From: Halorhabdus sp. CBA1104
GTDB lineage: Archaea; Halobacteriota; Halobacteria; Halobacteriales; Haloarculaceae
Direction of reading: 5' to 3'
Assembly (NCBI RefSeq): GCF_009690625.1
Contig: NZ_CP033878.1
Coordinates: forward strand, 558,001 to 622,000
DNA length: 64,000 bases
In this document: positions 5,041-46,089 of the stretch, piece by piece
Layout: every line of letters begins with the position of its first letter
Position numbering within the stretch: the stretch's first letter is position 1
The notes under the pieces: model-generated
What the model saw: the letters and a program-made list of their open reading frames with translations, nothing else
What the model was told of the DNA's origin: nothing
Databases searched by the model: none
Position numbers and translations under genes: made by a program

Positions 5041-6543
5041 ATGACAGATCAACAGACAACTGCGGTCCTGATCGTCGGCGGTGGCATCGCAGGGTGTGCG
5101 GCCGCGCTGTCGGCGGCCCGGAAAGACGCCGACGTCACGCTTGCGACGAAAGCCCGTCGCCCGGAAGACGCCTCGACGTGGTGGGCACAGGGTGGCATCG
5201 CAATCTCTCGGGACGATCCCGAACAGTTCAAACAGGACATCATCGACGCCTCCGCAGGTACCGCCGATCCCGACGCAGCGGACGTCCTCGTCGAGAACGC
5301 GAACGATGCCGTTCGTGACGTCCTCGTCGAGACCCTGGAGGTGCCTTTCGACACTGCAGAGAGTACCGAGGAAGCGTTCGACTTCGGCCGCGAGGCCGCC
5401 CACGACGAGGATCGCATCCTCCACGTCGACGCCTCGACTGGATCCTACGTCCTCGAACGCTTCCTCGCGTTCGTCGACGACCACCCCGACATCCGCGTGC
5501 TCGACGACACGGCCGCGCTGGACCTCATCACCCACGAGGGCGAGGTCCGCGGTGCGTCCCTCGAATCCGATGGTGAGGTCTGGCCGGTCTTCGCTGGCGC
5601 GACCGTGCTGGCGACTGGCGGCATCGGTGACCTCTACCCCGCCTCGACCAACCCGGCCGGATCGACTGGTGACGGAATCGCGATGGCGGCACTGGCCGGT
5701 GCGGACATCAAAGACATGGAGTTTGTCCAGTTCCATCCCACCGTCTACGTCGAGGATGGCGAGACGCTGCTGATCAGCGAGGCGGTCCGGGGCGAGGGCG
5801 CAGTCCTCCGGAACGGCTACGGCGAGCGCTTCATGCCGGCCTACGACGAGGCTGCCGAACTCGCTCCACGCGACGTGGTTGCACGGGCAGTCAAACGGGA
5901 ACGTCGGTTGAGCGGCGAAGTCCTCCTCGACGTCTCGCCCGTCGACTTCGAGAGTCGGTTCCCCGATCTAGTCGAGCAGTGTGAACGACGCGACATCGAC
6001 TGGAAATCGGGTATCCCAGTCCAGCCAGCCCAGCACTTCCTGTGTGGCGGGGTCGCTGTCGACGACCGGGGGCGAACCTCTCTCGATCGACTGTACGCCG
6101 CCGGGGAGTGTGCCCACACCGGCGTCCACGGGGCCAATCGCCTCGCGAGTACGAGCCTGCTGGAAGGGCTCGTCTGGGGCCTGCGGGCCGGGACAGCAGC
6201 CTCCGGTCGTGCCCCGGCGCCGATGGACGTGCCAGACCTGGACGACCGCGATCCGTCTCTCCCCGACTCGTTCGCCCGCGAGAAGTTCACCCGGCTCCGT
6301 CGGGTCATGGACGAAGCCGTCGGCATCGAGCGCGATCCGGCGGAACTGGATGGGGCGCTATCCGTGCTCCGGCGACTCAAGGGCGAAGTCGATTCTTACA
6401 CTCGCACGCGTACGTCGCGGTCTCTGTACGAACTCCGCAACGCCAGCGTCGTCGCGCTGTTGGTGGCTCGGGCTGCGGCCGAAAACGACGAGAGCGTCGG
6501 GACGCACAATCTAGTCGAACCCGACGCCCCGCTCGCGGAGTGA
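5041..6543 (+). CDS. nadB: L-aspartate oxidase
   Basis: FAD enzyme that oxidises L-aspartate to iminoaspartate, feeding NadA. The 500-residue product belongs to the fumarate reductase/succinate dehydrogenase flavoprotein family. It shows the dinucleotide-binding VLIVGGGIAGCAAALSA at residues 9-25, the STWWAQGGIA block, ATGGIGDLYPASTNPAGSTGD, the catalytic-region FVQFHPTV, and the late GANRLASTSLLEGLVWG that contacts FAD. The C-terminal helical domain is present but the whole is about 40 residues shorter than the E. coli enzyme. The ATG at 5041 is two bases after the nadA stop, and nadC begins five bases after its own stop, so all three are probably translated from one mRNA. Confidence 0.95.
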   Translation: MTDQQTTAVLIVGGGIAGCAAALSAARKDADVTLATKARRPEDASTWWAQGGIAISRDDPEQFKQDIIDASAGTADPDAADVLVENANDAVRDVLVETLEVPFDTAESTEEAFDFGREAAHDEDRILHVDASTGSYVLERFLAFVDDHPDIRVLDDTAALDLITHEGEVRGASLESDGEVWPVFAGATVLATGGIGDLYPASTNPAGSTGDGIAMAALAGADIKDMEFVQFHPTVYVEDGETLLISEAVRGEGAVLRNGYGERFMPAYDEAAELAPRDVVARAVKRERRLSGEVLLDVSPVDFESRFPDLVEQCERRDIDWKSGIPVQPAQHFLCGGVAVDDRGRTSLDRLYAAGECAHTGVHGANRLASTSLLEGLVWGLRAGTAASGRAPAPMDVPDLDDRDPSLPDSFAREKFTRLRRVMDEAVGIERDPAELDGALSVLRRLKGEVDSYTRTRTSRSLYELRNASVVALLVARAAAENDESVGTHNLVEPDAPLAE

Positions 6544-38822: not shown

Positions 38823-40619
38823 TTACTCGTCGGTTTCGCGGCGCGGCGGGTCGTCGGTTGCTGTGGGCTGTTGGCCGCCATCAGTAACGGCCTGTTGTTG
38901 GCCGCCGTCGGCTGCAGTGAGCCGGTCGGCGTGCCAGCCGAACTCACGGGTGTACAGCCCGGACTGCTTGAGATCCCACGGGTCGGCGTCGGTCACCTTC
39001 GGGGCGTCGAGCCACGAGGAGACGACGTTCCAGACGAAGATCAGTTGCCCGATCAGGAGGATGACCGCGCCGACGGTCGCGGCTTGGTGGAGCAGTGTTT
39101 GGGCCTCGAGTGGGCCGACCGTGACCATATCGTAGCTCGCGTATCGGCGCGGCATCTGCATGTACCCGAGCAACAGCATCGCGAAGAAGGTCACGTTGGT
39201 GCCGATCATCGACAGCCAGAAGTGCCACTTCGCCAAGGTCCGCTGGTACATCTTCCCCGTGAAGATGGGGAACCAGTAGTAGATGCCCGCGAACACCGCG
39301 AAGGCGATCGCCCCCATGACGATGTAGTGGAAGTGCCCGACGACGTAGTAGGTGTCGTGGAGAACGAGATTGACCGGAATGGCAGCCAGGAAGACACCGG
39401 TCACGCCACCGATGATGAAATTCGAGATGAATCCGATCGAGAACAGCATCGGTGCCGCCAGTCTAATTCGGCCGTTCCACATCGTCGTGATCCAGTTGAA
39501 CGTCTTCACGGCGCTGGGTATCGCAATGGCGAGTGACACTGCCATGAACGAGGCTCGCAGGCGTGGATCGATCCCGGTCGAGAACATGTGGTGGGCCCAG
39601 ACGCCAAAGGAGAGCACCCCAATCGCCAGCGTCGAGTAGACGACGAACTTGAACCCGAACAGTTTCCGGCCGGCAAAGCGCGGAATGATGTAGCTGATCA
39701 GGCCCATCGGGGGGAGCACGAGGATGTACACTTCCGGATGGCCAAAGAACCAAAAGAGGTGTTGCCAGAGGATCGGGCCGCCACCTTCTCCGACCGCGTA
39801 GAACAGCGTCCCGAGGTTCCGATCGAGCAACAGCATGACGATGGCACTGCCAAGCAGCGGGAACGCGAAGAGGATCAGTCCCGACTGGGTGAGCATCGTC
39901 CAGGAGAAAATGTCGAGGTTGGCCCAGCTGACATCATCACCACGTTCGGTGAAGATTGTCACGATGAAGTTGATCGCCCCCATCGTCGCCGAGACGCCAG
40001 TCAGGTGCAACCCCAGAAGCATGAGGTCCGCGCCGACGTGGGCCTGTTCGACCGATAGCGGCGTGTACATCGTCCAGCTGGTCTGGGCGGGTGCGATCCC
40101 GGGGACGAGAAAGCCACCCCAGATGAGGAGCGCGCCGGGGGGCAACAACCAGAACGCGATGGCGTTGATCCGCGGGAAGGCCATGTCGTCGGCCCCGATC
40201 AACAACGGCACGAAGTAGTTCCCGAAGGCCGCGATGATCGGCGTACCGAACAAAAACAGCATCGTGATGCCGTGACTCGTCAGCAACGCGTTGTAGAACT
40301 GGGGACTAACCACGTCCGATGCTGGCGTGATCAGTTCGAACCGCATGACCATCACCATCAGTCCACCGATCGCCAGCGCGAGGAGTGCGAAGACGCCGTA
40401 GAGAATGCCGATGTCCTTGTGATCGACGGTCGTGAGCCACCTGGTCACACCCGAGGGCTTTTCGCGGTGGCCGTATCCGGTATCCTCGCCGACGGCGACG
40501 GCGCCGCCACCGGCCAGGGGCGTGTATCGCCGCCAATCCTCGATCCGCGTGAGGATCGCAGCGACCCCGACCAGGACGAGCCCCATCAGCACCGTCAACG
40601 CGAGCTGCTGTCCTGCCAT
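38823..40619 (-). CDS. coxA: Cytochrome c/quinol oxidase subunit I
   Basis: Catalytic heme-copper oxygen reductase subunit, pumping protons while reducing oxygen. The 598-residue protein has one extra N-terminal helix (residues 5-25) before the 12-helix core that starts with TTVDHKDIGILYG. Heme and CuB ligands are visible in LLTSHGITMLFLFGTP, GHPEVYILVLPPMG, WAHHMFSTGID and VGHFHYIVMGA. HPEVY with the K-channel Glu/Tyr region suggests the A-type family. Subunits II and III are not in the window. Two small membrane-protein genes precede it on the same strand. Confidence 0.93.
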   Translation of the reverse strand: MAGQQLALTVLMGLVLVGVAAILTRIEDWRRYTPLAGGGAVAVGEDTGYGHREKPSGVTRWLTTVDHKDIGILYGVFALLALAIGGLMVMVMRFELITPASDVVSPQFYNALLTSHGITMLFLFGTPIIAAFGNYFVPLLIGADDMAFPRINAIAFWLLPPGALLIWGGFLVPGIAPAQTSWTMYTPLSVEQAHVGADLMLLGLHLTGVSATMGAINFIVTIFTERGDDVSWANLDIFSWTMLTQSGLILFAFPLLGSAIVMLLLDRNLGTLFYAVGEGGGPILWQHLFWFFGHPEVYILVLPPMGLISYIIPRFAGRKLFGFKFVVYSTLAIGVLSFGVWAHHMFSTGIDPRLRASFMAVSLAIAIPSAVKTFNWITTMWNGRIRLAAPMLFSIGFISNFIIGGVTGVFLAAIPVNLVLHDTYYVVGHFHYIVMGAIAFAVFAGIYYWFPIFTGKMYQRTLAKWHFWLSMIGTNVTFFAMLLLGYMQMPRRYASYDMVTVGPLEAQTLLHQAATVGAVILLIGQLIFVWNVVSSWLDAPKVTDADPWDLKQSGLYTREFGWHADRLTAADGGQQQAVTDGGQQPTATDDPPRRETDE

Positions 40620-40740
40620 AGACGTCAGTCAGCGTGGGCCGTACAAAAAGTGTGTGTTGGCGGCACCATTCCCTTACGTGACCGTCCCCTGATATTGAGG
40701 GGTTTTATCGTGGCTGTTCGGCGAACGGAAAATACTGTCT

Positions 40741-41046
40741 TCACGGTCGTCCGTTGTCGCCACACTCTCCCGTTTCACTCCCGTGTTTCGGGGAGTACGC
40801 CCGGGGCTCTTCGGATTCGCCATCGCGTTCAGCGTTGGCGATCGCCCGGCCGGAGTAGTAGGTCAAGATGGTGAGCAGGACCATCATCGTACCGACGATC
40901 CCCAGTTGCAGGCCGGATGTGACGCTGTTCCAGCCGAAGGGGCTGGCGACGATGAACGCGACGAAGAAGAACACGAGCATCCCCAACGGAATGACGTTGA
41001 CGGTCAGATCGAGTAGGGTCTCGTGGTCGAGCGGACCGATTTCCAT
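40741..41046 (-). CDS. Small membrane protein upstream of coxA
   Basis: 101-residue protein with two membrane helices, about residues 15-37 and 48-70, after a short N-terminus MEIGPLDHETLLDL, and a polar, acidic tail of 30 residues. Small proteins of this kind are conserved next to haloarchaeal cox genes, but their role is not established. It lies 121 bases upstream of coxA, same strand. The ATG at 41046 is preferred to a longer frame whose extra residues are basic and overlap the next gene. Confidence 0.65.
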   Translation of the reverse strand: MEIGPLDHETLLDLTVNVIPLGMLVFFFVAFIVASPFGWNSVTSGLQLGIVGTMMVLLTILTYYSGRAIANAERDGESEEPRAYSPKHGSETGECGDNGRP

Positions 41047-41125
41047 GCCCGAACGTTCGGCAGTACGGATAAATAGACTGTTGGAACCGGAAATCGCGCC
41101 GTCCCAGCGCTCACTCACTCCGCGT

Positions 41126-41515
41126 TCACTCCGCCAGAGAGCCAGCGATCCCGATGGCGACCAGAATCGCGCCACTCCCAACGACTGCGAGCCCTCGCCC
41201 CACGATGCCGTTCGGATCGGTCACGACGCCGAGGACATCTAGGGTTGCGGGGTCAACCTGACTTGCCACCATTCCGACGCCTAAGAGGCCGAATGCGACG
41301 CCGAGGCCGGCAAGGGGCCGCCAGAGGCGCTTCGCGTAGCCCGACTCGACGAGGATACCGGCAACACTCCCGCCGAGCAACAGCAGGCCGCCGACGGCGA
41401 CCGCGAAGTAGCCGACGAAGATACCCAGCTCCGCGAGCGCGAAGCCGAGCGCGATGAACACCGGCCAGGGGCTCGCGCGGCGAAACTCTCCCGTTGCCTT
41501 GGCCTGCTCGCTCAT
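41126..41515 (-). CDS. Small four-helix membrane protein in cox cluster
   Basis: 129-residue protein with four hydrophobic segments (about residues 15-33, 36-53, 65-83 and 100-125) and the N-terminus MSEQAKATGEFRRASPWP. I cannot name a family with confidence; homologues seem to travel with haloarchaeal cytochrome oxidase genes. It is first in the minus-strand run of two small membrane proteins and coxA. The ATG at 41515 gives a polar start; upstream residues in the same frame are not protein-like. Confidence 0.65.
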   Translation of the reverse strand: MSEQAKATGEFRRASPWPVFIALGFALAELGIFVGYFAVAVGGLLLLGGSVAGILVESGYAKRLWRPLAGLGVAFGLLGVGMVASQVDPATLDVLGVVTDPNGIVGRGLAVVGSGAILVAIGIAGSLAE

Positions 41516-41633
41516 ACTCCTGGTTGGCTTGCCGACCGGAAAGGTCCGTCGGAGGCGGCCGGTCTGGCGGGGATCGACGCTGCACGGCACGCGGGCGCAA
41601 AGTATATGGCTCGCATGGGACTTGTTCGTCACA

Positions 41634-44216
41634 ATGACCACACAAGCCATCGAGCGAGTCGAGCAGTGGGAGACCCGCTCGTTCGAGGGAGGCTATCGGG
41701 GGCTGCAGACGCTCACAGACCGGGAGTTTTCCGGCGTTGTTCGGGCCACCGGCGGCACGCTCTGTATGCTCAACGGTACTGTCGTCGGCATCGTCGGTGG
41801 ATCTATCGACGATTTCGAAGATGCCGATGGGACCGCGTATACCGCCCCGACGCCGGCCCTTCCCCTGCTGATCGTCATGCAAGAGCGCAGCGACGAGGTT
41901 CGAGGGAAGTACTACACCGAGGATACGCCACTTTCGAAGGTCGACTCGACGCTCTCGGACGGCGGATTCACGGGTTTCATCCAACTTTCCGAGAACGTTC
42001 TCAGCGGGGATTACTACGTCGTCTATCACAGTGGCCGCTCGATGAGCGTTGCCTTCGTCGGTGAGAGTGCCCAGTTGCTCGTCGAAGACGAGGCTTTCCA
42101 GCGGGCCGACGACGAAGTGGGGATCTACGAGGTTCGGCCGGTCGATATCGAACCAGTCGAGATCCCCGAGCCCGAGACGCCGCCTGCGTCCTCAGCCGAG
42201 GCTGCCGCCGGGTCCTCGGACACACCGGCGGCTGAGGACGAGGATTCTGACGTGCCCGTCTCCGCTGACACTGACGCCGAGGCGGCCAACGATACCGCAC
42301 CCGACGATTCCGAGCCGGATCCGGCCGACCCCGCGGAAACGCCAACCGACGAGACAGCAACGCCGTCGACGGTCCAAGAGCCCGACACCACCGGTGGGCA
42401 GCCCGAAGCCGCCACGTCAGATGGGGCTGTCTCGACCGAACGTGCTCGGACAGACGACTCGACCAGTGAGCCAACTGCCGAGTCGAGGAGCGAGACCGGA
42501 ACGGACGCCAACGCTGCAGCAAGGACGGAACCGGTCGCACAAGACAGTGAGTCGGCGGCGGGCGAATCGGCTCCCCCCGAGACGGCGGCTGAATCGCCCA
42601 CGACGGAGACCGATCCCGAATCGACGACGCCTGCCGAAACGGCTACCCAGGAGCGCCTCGACGGAGCGGACCGACGCGCACAAGGGTCCACAGCGGCGGC
42701 CGAGTCGACACGACCGACGACGGAAACCGACACGGACACGCCGGAGAGAACGACGACTGATCGTCCGTCGGGGGATCGCGACCAGTCGGCGGACACGGCC
42801 ACCGAAGGGCCTGCTTCGTCCGGGCAGTCGCCGACGGCCGACCAGCGACGGGAGACCGGAACGAGCGGTGCCGATCGTCCGGCCGACCGGTCTCCGTCCC
42901 GTTCCGGTGGATCGCCCTCGTCCGGGGAGGCTGTCGAATTAGAAACCCGGACGCTTCCATCACTGGATCCCGACCGCACTTGGAACGGCGACGAGCGCGA
43001 GCGCCAGCCCGAGGTCCCGACTGGGGAGTCAGCCAACCTACCATCAACCAGCGAACCCGAACCGGCAAACGAGCACCGTTCAAGCGGCCAGAGTGAAGCC
43101 ACCGAGGCGAGCCAATCCACGGACACGGCCACGGCTGGCACGTCTGAGAAGCAACAACCCAACGCGGCGGCCCCCCCGTCAAGTGAGTCCGAATCAGCCA
43201 CCGAGCCCGAACCCGAGCCACAAGCTGAGACCGAGACGGTCGCGGCGCTTCGAGAAACCATCGCGGACCGTGAACAGCGCATCGAAACCCTCGAAGCGAA
43301 TCTCGAAACGACTCGACGGGAACGTGACGAACTCGAAACCGAGCGTGACGACCTACAGGCACAAGTAGAGCGATTGGAGGACGAACTGTCCGAACTCCGT
43401 GAGGAACTGTCTGATCTCCGTGAGGAACGGGAGATGCTCTCATCCCAACTCGAGGCCCACGACGGCACCGACGGCGAGACCCCCGAACGACGGCTCGGAC
43501 AGCAGGAGGCCTTAGATGGTACTGACTTGTTTGTCAGATACGCCTCGAAAGGGGAGCCGACGCTGAAATCAGCCTACGAGAACGGCGCTACACGGGCCGA
43601 CGTCAACCAAAACCTCGATGTCGAATCCCACACCCAGTTCGAGACGGAGGGGACGGTCGTTTCCGGGGATTCCTTCGAATCGTTCTTACACAGTACTGTC
43701 GAGCATCGCTACGTTTCGTGGATCGTCCGGCAGCTACTCTTCGAGATACGCGATACGGGACACCAGGACGCGCTTGCAGACCTCTACGACGCGTTGCCCC
43801 GGATCGACCGGATCGAACTCAACGGCACGACGGCTGTCGAATACACGGAAGACGGTCAGACGAAACGGTCACAGGAATCTTTCGACGTGGTGTTGCGTGA
43901 CCGGATGGGCAACCCACTGATCGTCGCAAACATCAACGATTCCCGACAGGCTGCCACCGAAGACCAGATGTCCTCGCTGGTCACGGCCGCCACTCGCATC
44001 GGCGAATCGAACGCCAGCCTCGCCGCGGCGATGTTCGTCACGTCGAGTTTCTTCGAACCCGGTGCTCTGGAGACGGCTGCCGACGCGACTGGTGGCGGTC
44101 TCCTGAGCCGAGACAAACGGGAGAGTTACGTCAAAATCTCCCGCAAGCAGGGCTTTCACCTCTGTCTGGTCGAAGCGCGCGAAGAACAGTTCCACATGGC
44201 TGTCCCCGAACTGTGA
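41634..44216 (+). CDS. Modular 860-residue protein: globular head, disordered linker, coiled coil, nuclease-like tail
   Basis: I cannot assign a function. Four parts are visible. Residues 1-175 are a globular domain (FEGGYRGLQTLTDREFSG, GTVVGIVGGSIDDFED, GFTGFIQLSENVLSGDYYV). About 176-529 are Ser/Thr/Pro/Glu/Asp-rich and almost certainly disordered. Residues 530-612 form a heptad coiled coil (LREELSDLREERE and similar). Residues 625-860 are a second globular domain with alternating strands and helices, SFDVVLRDRMGNPLIVANIN followed by a helix, which resembles a PD-(D/E)xK fold without the catalytic Glu-x-Lys. There is no signal peptide, so it is cytosolic. TATATG about 28 nt upstream sets the ATG. 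Confidence 0.8.
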   Translation: MTTQAIERVEQWETRSFEGGYRGLQTLTDREFSGVVRATGGTLCMLNGTVVGIVGGSIDDFEDADGTAYTAPTPALPLLIVMQERSDEVRGKYYTEDTPLSKVDSTLSDGGFTGFIQLSENVLSGDYYVVYHSGRSMSVAFVGESAQLLVEDEAFQRADDEVGIYEVRPVDIEPVEIPEPETPPASSAEAAAGSSDTPAAEDEDSDVPVSADTDAEAANDTAPDDSEPDPADPAETPTDETATPSTVQEPDTTGGQPEAATSDGAVSTERARTDDSTSEPTAESRSETGTDANAAARTEPVAQDSESAAGESAPPETAAESPTTETDPESTTPAETATQERLDGADRRAQGSTAAAESTRPTTETDTDTPERTTTDRPSGDRDQSADTATEGPASSGQSPTADQRRETGTSGADRPADRSPSRSGGSPSSGEAVELETRTLPSLDPDRTWNGDERERQPEVPTGESANLPSTSEPEPANEHRSSGQSEATEASQSTDTATAGTSEKQQPNAAAPPSSESESATEPEPEPQAETETVAALRETIADREQRIETLEANLETTRRERDELETERDDLQAQVERLEDELSELREELSDLREEREMLSSQLEAHDGTDGETPERRLGQQEALDGTDLFVRYASKGEPTLKSAYENGATRADVNQNLDVESHTQFETEGTVVSGDSFESFLHSTVEHRYVSWIVRQLLFEIRDTGHQDALADLYDALPRIDRIELNGTTAVEYTEDGQTKRSQESFDVVLRDRMGNPLIVANINDSRQAATEDQMSSLVTAATRIGESNASLAAAMFVTSSFFEPGALETAADATGGGLLSRDKRESYVKISRKQGFHLCLVEAREEQFHMAVPEL

Positions 44217-44239: not shown

Positions 44240-44545
44240 TTAACTCTCGACTTGGGCCGCGTCCTCGATCTTCATGCCTTCCAGTTTCTCGATCGTCTGA
44301 TCGACTTTCTCGTCGAGGTCGTCGACGAATTCCTGGGTCTGCTCGGTCGTGATCGCTCCCTGGCTGGACGGCTCGATGAGGTTCTCTTCTTCGAGTACGC
44401 GAAGCGAGTACCGCACCTTGTGATGCGGGTAGCCTGTCTCGTTGGACATCTTCACGATGCCGATCGGTTCATTCTCGATGACCATCCGCAGAACCTGCAG
44501 ATGTCGCTCCAGCATGTCCACTTCTTTCTCAAGCCTATCTATCAT
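44240..44545 (-). CDS. Winged-HTH transcriptional regulator with coiled-coil ends
   Basis: 101-residue archaeal regulator. It begins with a helix of heptads (MIDRLEKEVDMLERHLQVLRMV), continues with a winged HTH (GIVKMSNETGYPHHKVRYSL, RVLEEENLIEPSSQG) and ends with a second amphipathic helix (FVDDLDEKVDQTIEKLEGM), so dimerisation through the terminal helices is likely. Similar proteins are widespread in haloarchaea; targets are not known. The promoter (minus-strand CCTTTAAACC, 30 nt from the ATG) overlaps an imperfect palindrome. It diverges from purA and converges on the 860-residue protein gene. Confidence 0.82.
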   Translation of the reverse strand: MIDRLEKEVDMLERHLQVLRMVIENEPIGIVKMSNETGYPHHKVRYSLRVLEEENLIEPSSQGAITTEQTQEFVDDLDEKVDQTIEKLEGMKIEDAAQVES

Positions 44546-44709: not shown

Positions 44710-46089
44710 ATGACTGTCACGATTGTCGGGTCGCAGTTAGGCGACGAAGGGAAGGGCCGCGTTGTCGACCTCTACAGCGACGACGCCGATGTTGTCGTCC
44801 GTTATCAGGGCGGAGACAACGCCGGACACACCGTGTGTCATGCCGGCGAGGAGTACAAACTCTCACTCGTTCCCAGCGGTGCGATCCGGGGTAAAGTGGG
44901 CGTCCTCGGTAACGGCTGTGTCATCAATCCACGGACGCTGTTCGACGAACTGGAAATGCTCGCCGATCGTGGCCTCGACCCGGACGTTCGAGTCGCCGAG
45001 CGGGCACACGTCATTCTCCCGTTCCACCGCGTGCTCGACGGCATCGAGGAAGACGTCAAAAGCGAAGACGACCAGGAAGTCGGGACGACTGGCCGCGGCA
45101 TCGGCCCGACCTACGAGGACAAGGCCGGCCGCCGCGGGGTCCGGATCGGTGACTTACTCGACCCCGCGGTCCTCCGCGAGCGCCTGGAGTATATCGTCCC
45201 GCAGAAACGAGCCGTCGTCGAGGACGTGTACGGTCTGGATCCAGACGGCTTCGAGGAGTATCCCAATGCCTTCGACATCGACGCACTGTTCGAGGAGTTC
45301 AGCGAGTACGGCCGCCGCATCGAACGTGCAGGCATGGCCGTCAATGCCGGGGCGTACCTTACTGACGCTCGCGAGTCGGGTAACAACCTCATGCTCGAAG
45401 GGGCTCAGGGGACGGTCATCGATATCGACCACGGCAACTATCCGTTCGTGACCTCCTCGAATCCGACCGCAGGTGGGGCGACAGTCGGCACCGGGCTCGC
45501 ACCGGGCGTTATCGGTGACGGTGAAGTCATCGGGATCGTCAAGGCTTACCTCACGCGGGTCGGGAGCGGCCCCCTGCCGACAGAACTGGGCGGCGTCGTC
45601 GGTGACACGCCCGGCTACGACCAACAGGGTGATGGCGACGACGAGGAACTCGCGACGTACATTCGCGAGGCTGGCGACGAGTACGGCACTGTCACTGGCC
45701 GTCCGCGACGGGTCGGCTGGCTCGATCTGCCGATGTTGCGTCACTCGACCAGAGTGAGCGGCTTCACTGGACTGGCGATCAACCACGTCGATACGCTTGC
45801 CGGACTGGACGAACTGCAGGTCGCGACTGCCTACGAACTCGATGGCGACCGTGTGGAGACGATCCCTCCGACGACCGAGCGGTGGGCTGACTGTGAGCCC
45901 GTCTACCGACGCTTCGAGGGCTGGGAGGACCACGACTGGGACGCGATCGCCGAGGATGGCTACGAGGCGCTGCCGGAGAATGCCCGCACCTACCTGGAGT
46001 TCCTGAGCGACGATCTCGACGTCCCGATCTACGCGATCGGGATCGGCCCCTCGCGTGAGGATACGATCGTCCGCCAGCGCCCGTACTGA
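44710..46089 (+). CDS. purA: Adenylosuccinate synthetase
   Basis: Joins IMP and aspartate with GTP to form adenylosuccinate, the first committed step to AMP. The 459-residue protein starts with MTVTIVGSQLGDEGKGRVVDL, which supplies the GTP loop and catalytic Asp12, and has the essential His40 in GGDNAGHTV. Other blocks are TTGRGIGPTYEDKAGR (IMP site), EGAQGTVIDIDHGNYPFVTSSNPT and GEVIGIVKAYLTRVGSGPLPTEL. About 25 residues exceed the E. coli length, mainly in an acidic QGDGDDEELATYIRE loop common in haloarchaea. A TATA-like box at 44681-44686 sets the start. Confidence 0.95.
   Translation: MTVTIVGSQLGDEGKGRVVDLYSDDADVVVRYQGGDNAGHTVCHAGEEYKLSLVPSGAIRGKVGVLGNGCVINPRTLFDELEMLADRGLDPDVRVAERAHVILPFHRVLDGIEEDVKSEDDQEVGTTGRGIGPTYEDKAGRRGVRIGDLLDPAVLRERLEYIVPQKRAVVEDVYGLDPDGFEEYPNAFDIDALFEEFSEYGRRIERAGMAVNAGAYLTDARESGNNLMLEGAQGTVIDIDHGNYPFVTSSNPTAGGATVGTGLAPGVIGDGEVIGIVKAYLTRVGSGPLPTELGGVVGDTPGYDQQGDGDDEELATYIREAGDEYGTVTGRPRRVGWLDLPMLRHSTRVSGFTGLAINHVDTLAGLDELQVATAYELDGDRVETIPPTTERWADCEPVYRRFEGWEDHDWDAIAEDGYEALPENARTYLEFLSDDLDVPIYAIGIGPSREDTIVRQRPY

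Follow-up and report, generated by a model that had tools for sequence, protein, structure and literature searches.

The 860-residue DUF7527 protein encoded in the analysed window, a 64,000-nucleotide stretch of haloarchaeal DNA, carries a degenerate PD-(D/E)XK-like module that probably serves for binding, in an architecture resembling a tether. The protein is one of a family of single-copy proteins that occur almost throughout a well-studied archaeal class and have no assigned role. With its tail recognised as a universally degenerate nuclease fold, joined through a coil and a flexible arm to a head that is unclassified, this anonymous DUF becomes a testable tether. The inactive PD-(D/E)XK module is of an already known kind. 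New here are the occurrence of the head-tail pair outside Halobacteria, the fusions of kinase to tail and of head to zinc ribbon, and the clean loss of the gene from some lineages. The head, the coil, the fold class and the motif loss are described beyond what the Pfam entry holds. Literature searches by name (DUF7527) and by description returned nothing on the 860-residue protein.

The gene and its domain organization

The reading frame was translated from ATG 41634 to a stop codon ending at 44216, which gives 860 residues. The frame is open upstream as far as 41454. The start was placed at M1 because conservation among the aligned homologues begins there, and because at one locus (L036) a stop codon lies directly before the equivalent Met. 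Met occupies position 1 in 53 of 55 aligned homologues. Columns are on average 59% identical in the tail and 57% in the head; chance is excluded, since both domains are kept class-wide. The 860-residue ORF is a real gene.

The linker (353 residues) is of low complexity, dominated by A, T, E, S, P and D, with a net charge of -59. The segment that follows it (526-608) is rich in heptads by heptad scan. Searches of the own genome with each domain revealed no second head or tail. The initial annotation had described a modular protein with a head of about 175 residues, a long flexible acidic arm of about 350, a coiled coil of about 80 and a tail from about residue 625; the domain bounds (Table 1) and the homologues agree with this. 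Its remark that no known function fits also holds, as DUF7527 is absent from the literature searched.

Table 1. Features of the DUF7527 gene and its downstream neighbours (window positions).
Feature	Positions	Strand	Basis
860-residue protein: head, acidic disordered linker, coiled coil, DUF7527 tail	41634..44216 (stop included)	+	translation, DUF7527 match, class-wide homologues
Head domain, residues 1-172	41634..42149	+	alpha/beta; AlphaFold2 model; no Pfam family
Acidic disordered linker, residues 173-525	42150..43208	+	composition
Coiled coil, residues about 526-608	43209..43457	+	heptad scan over homologues; coil-type matches to SMC/CENP-F-like models
DUF7527 tail, residues 615-860	43476..44213	+	AlphaFold2, Foldseek against PDB and BFVD, column counts
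Motif II/III segment FDVVLRDRMGNPLIVANINDSR, residues 750-771	43881..43946	+	column counts over 73 sequences
Flexible conserved loop, residues 822-826 (S825, R826)	44097..44111	+	low pLDDT and column counts; candidate binding loop
101-residue winged-helix-like (HTH) protein	44240..44545	-	convergent with the gene; sub-threshold CggR_N match
purA, adenylosuccinate synthetase	44710..46089	+	Pfam Adenylsucc_synt, E 6e-151

In the coil region, hmmscan gave generic coiled-coil matches only. The model for SMC and the archaea-specific SMC-related protein (NF045487) matched residues 521-611 with an E-value of 6e-8, at a score of 31.7 against a cut-off of 300, and the similarity is confined to the coil. 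No region of the ABC-ATPase head of SMC-like proteins was present among the matches shown, the SMC-type matches being confined to the coil. Kinship with SMC or ASRP proteins was rejected because the similarity is coil-only. Membership of a defence system was likewise rejected, as what PADLOC matches in the window protein is essentially limited to the coil.

The tail has a predicted PD-(D/E)XK-like fold

Residues 622-860 matched DUF7527 (Pfam PF24371) over model positions 2-237 of 237 with 366 bits against a cut-off of 27 (hmmscan, E 8e-110). The tail is a full-length member of this family, whose Pfam entry gives no function and covers the tail only. An AlphaFold2 model of the tail, built from 73 aligned window and locus sequences, was confident (pLDDT 93.3, pTM 0.90). 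When the model was compared with the PDB by Foldseek, the top of the list consisted mostly of PD-(D/E)XK proteins: AF1548 (probability 1.00), Pyrococcus abyssi NucS (0.99), EndoMS, Cas4 SSO0001 and Can2, and further YaeQ, MspJI, EcoO109I, AdnAB, MGME1 and RPB5. Independently, the search against BFVD returned restriction endonucleases, PD-(D/E)XK proteins and RPB5. None of the Foldseek matches of the tail reached E < 0.001; the best E-values were 0.003 (PDB) and 0.0013 (BFVD), with TM below 0.35.

The best named structural matches, NucS/EndoMS, AF1548 and Cas4 (SSO0001), are active archaeal proteins of the PD-(D/E)XK fold. In the profile alignment with NucS, FDVVLRDRMGNPLIVANIN was placed on the motif II-III hairpin in the expected register, so that this hairpin lines up with the FDVV..D..GNPL hairpin of the tail; the score of this alignment is not significant. 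This hhalign comparison of the tail with a haloarchaeal NucS_C profile gave E 0.12-0.21, which does not improve on the 0.2 of an unrelated control pair. Kinship with NucS by profile was therefore rejected. The assignment of the tail to a PD-(D/E)XK-like fold thus derives from structure prediction and not from sequence. All DUF7527 members differ from NucS/EndoMS, AF1548 and Cas4 in that the Glu-x-Lys is missing. The initial annotation had read the tail as PD-(D/E)xK-like without its Glu-x-Lys, and this is supported, the structure matches being mostly to the predicted fold and not to an unrelated enzyme fold.

Catalytic motif III is absent from all members

The residues expected of a PD-(D/E)XK nuclease were counted column by column over the 73 sequences. 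The motif II aspartate is present (D751, Asp in 72/73). A candidate motif I residue, the acidic E704, lies in the preceding helix and is Glu in 68 and Asp in 3 sequences, that is, acidic in 71/73. Motif III, (D/E)-x-K, is missing. The position of its Glu (765) is occupied by A60 V7 I2 L2 T1 and that of its Lys (767) by hydrophobic residues, mainly L33 I19 V7 F6 M4, with no Glu and no Lys, respectively, in 73/73. The tail is not classed as a nuclease because motif III is absent. The degeneracy is common to all members; it is therefore ancient and maintained, and the tail is not a decayed copy.

Other parts of the tail are well kept. Basic residues are conserved at R635, K639, R726, R771, R837, K838 and R849, and the H842-E847 strand is conserved as well. 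Lys or Arg is retained in at least 85% of sequences at nine positions of the tail, compared with none in the head. R771 (K/R 97%) stands just ahead of the next helix. Residues 822-826 (model residues 212-216) have pLDDT below 50, with S825 in 64/73 and R826 in 63/73 sequences, and are a candidate binding loop on these predictions. The net charge of the tail in this protein is -17; haloarchaeal proteins are usually net acidic.

The head is an unclassified domain

The AlphaFold2 model of the head was also confident (pLDDT 91.3, pTM 0.87), and on this model the head is an unclassified alpha/beta domain. No Pfam family was recognised in the heads of 55 members, and comparison with solved structures in the PDB, by sequence and by fold, gave no meaningful relative. 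The order of its secondary-structure elements recalls DUF4388/PATAN-type domains, and this served as a lead only. None of the 55 heads matched DUF4388 (PF14332) with the E-value limit set at 1, and with a limit of 10 the heads of the homologues outside Halobacteria gave no match either; lacking Pfam support, the assignment was rejected. The two halves of the head resemble each other weakly, with 4 of 200 column shuffles scoring as high. This internal repeat is suggestive only, and would be in keeping with two related alpha-beta-beta-beta units.

Conservation, spacing and loss

Of the 392 Halobacteria genomes sampled, 370 have DUF7527, 369 of them above the Pfam cut-off; each listed genome has one match, except G350. 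Haloferax volcanii gave the sole match among 14 control genomes. Viral contigs and phage records contained no relatives, and a virus or phage origin was ruled out on that ground.

Every complete chromosomal haloarchaeal homologue examined consists of head, acidic linker, a coil adjoining the tail, and tail. Head and tail lie in a single frame in each complete chromosomal homologue read, a count that leaves aside L042, whose frame is broken, and partial copies at the ends of contigs. Homologues thus retain the head-tail pair, as would be expected of the modular protein first proposed. The spacer between head and tail (linker plus coil) ranges from 87 to 558 residues, and the linker varies freely in length, down to almost nothing. 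A coil-like segment was present in all full haloarchaeal homologues scored by heptad scan, and it still adjoins the tail where the arm is almost gone (L083-L085). The arm is read as a spacer because head and tail are strongly conserved and the arm is not.

The gene is missing from several genomes, including members of genera g37, g81, g22, g42 and g61 and of family f11. The head is also missing in G014, G021, G044 and G073, the tail-less genomes that the head search lists. Some lineages have lost the gene cleanly, and it is dispensable in several. A remnant of the tail persists in G215 (L087, near 5221-5541), where the last 32 residues are recognisable directly adjoining the HTH gene; this is a recent gene loss.

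Outside Halobacteria, a search with the head over 393 genomes of the phylum gave a single match, G592 (E 5e-10), in which the same ORF carries the tail (E 1.5e-16). Another genome of the genus, G552, has the same head-tail protein. Both proteins measure about 500 residues, have neither coil nor long linker, and likewise lack motif III. Their gene neighbours differ from those at haloarchaeal loci. G592 has mcrA and is therefore a relative of methanogens or methane-oxidisers. The head-tail pair outside Halobacteria may reflect either ancestry or transfer.

Head and tail are separable modules

G350 encodes a second DUF7527 protein, in which the head is replaced by a protein kinase (Pkinase, E 2e-24), and in G072 a paralogue of the head continues through a linker into a C-terminal zinc ribbon, with no DUF7527 tail (L125 4762-5658, minus strand; G072:C1). 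Head and tail are separable modules, because a kinase is fused to the tail in the one and a zinc ribbon to the head in the other; there is one case of each. The two proteins are independent handles on the binding target of each module. In G350 the kinase-DUF7527 fusion lies in an island (L070 4462-12995; G350:C5) together with another protein kinase, an HSP70-GrpE-kinase protein, a PglZ-domain gene and an IS240-type transposase; the island resembles a kinase-based locus for conflict or signalling.

Possible function of the protein

The explanation that we prefer, tentatively, is a cytosolic, dimeric, non-catalytic tether whose tail binds and does not cut, its ligand being most likely nucleic acid. 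The coiled coil would form dimers and pair two degenerate PD-(D/E)XK tails. These would no longer cut, but would retain the fold, some of the metal-binding residues, the conserved basic positions and the flexible conserved loop, and would bind their target. The disordered acidic arm, its length little constrained, would let the two heads reach and capture a second partner. The fold ancestry favours nucleic acid over protein as the ligand of the tail, as do the conserved basic positions and the flexible loop, which is likewise conserved. Inactive PD-(D/E)xK domains are known to bind DNA (RecC) or protein (RPB5) (PMC1185551). RecC domain 3 and the RPB5 N-terminal domain likewise have a nuclease fold without catalytic residues that is used for binding. 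RecC and RPB5 are subunits of large complexes, whereas the DUF7527 tail is carried by a coiled coil and a long disordered arm and, unlike these domains, keeps the motif II Asp. Against a nucleic-acid tether stand the net acidic tail, the individually weak Foldseek matches, the non-significant NucS profile, the lack of a nucleic-acid gene as conserved neighbour and the dispensability of the gene in several lineages. The idea can be tested in Haloferax volcanii, which carries a homologue.

A possible though more doubtful explanation is that the tail docks onto protein, as in RPB5, which would make the whole a scaffold or signalling adaptor between two proteins with no nucleic acid involved. RPB5-type folds among the structure matches in both databases and the RPB5 precedent speak for it, as do the net acidic tail and the G350 fusion to a Ser/Thr kinase, with its neighbouring kinase, HSP70-GrpE-kinase and PglZ genes. 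However, the conserved basic positions and the retained motif I-like and motif II acidic residues exceed the needs of a docking face, and the kinase fusion is one case. It is quite improbable that the tail is an active metal-dependent phosphodiesterase with a rearranged site, its catalytic residues having migrated as in some PD-(D/E)XK families. An altered but active site was kept as a rival because migration of the catalytic (motif III) lysine in other families is described in PMC1913061, and the retention of D751 and E704 and the conserved R771 are consistent with it. However, the migrated family cited there, DUF506, appears to keep an acidic motif III residue, whereas the tail has A, V, I, L or T there in 73/73 sequences and a hydrophobic residue at the Lys position, and R771 is out of register in the homologues outside Halobacteria. 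To return to the preferred tether, a far-reaching version of it seems unlikely in full, namely a class-wide genome tether. Here the paired dead-nuclease tails would recognise a DNA structure and the heads would recruit a repair, segregation or membrane partner via the long acidic arms; the cassette would predate Halobacteria or have originated outside them, and would have been redeployed with kinase and zinc-ribbon modules.

Gene neighbourhood

The gene (+), HTH (-) and purA (+) follow in this order at 51 of the 55 loci, and the three stand in the same order on the 828-kb replicon of Natronorubrum bangense. These observations would suit a conserved functional unit of the gene, HTH and purA, such as a regulator of purine synthesis. 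Such a unit is nevertheless very improbable. The gene and the HTH gene converge and are therefore not an operon. Of the 16 genomes that have no intact DUF7527 gene, 15 retain the HTH gene, which adjoins purA at most inspected loci of this kind, with no common replacement gene in the vacated slot. Other neighbours surround the homologues outside Halobacteria. Since the HTH-purA pairing persists without the gene and no common replacement exists, the synteny is best read as slow rearrangement and not as a functional unit. No conserved upstream operon partners and no nucleic-acid gene as conserved neighbour were found at the loci. The gene is not part of an operon-type system.

The proposal in the initial annotation that the protein tethers something is a reasonable one, but its suggestion of an undescribed system is not supported in that form. 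No co-operonic partner is kept, the only constant neighbours being the convergent HTH gene and divergent purA, which mostly stay together after gene loss; and the protein, class-wide and single-copy, is already catalogued.

The 101-residue HTH protein shows 75-87% identity between the window and distant Halobacteria. On the other side of the gene, window positions 38823-41518 (minus strand) carry COX1 with the small genes DUF6684 and DUF7541. DUF7541 has a weak match to cytochrome c oxidase subunit IV and may be a haloarchaeal oxidase subunit IV.
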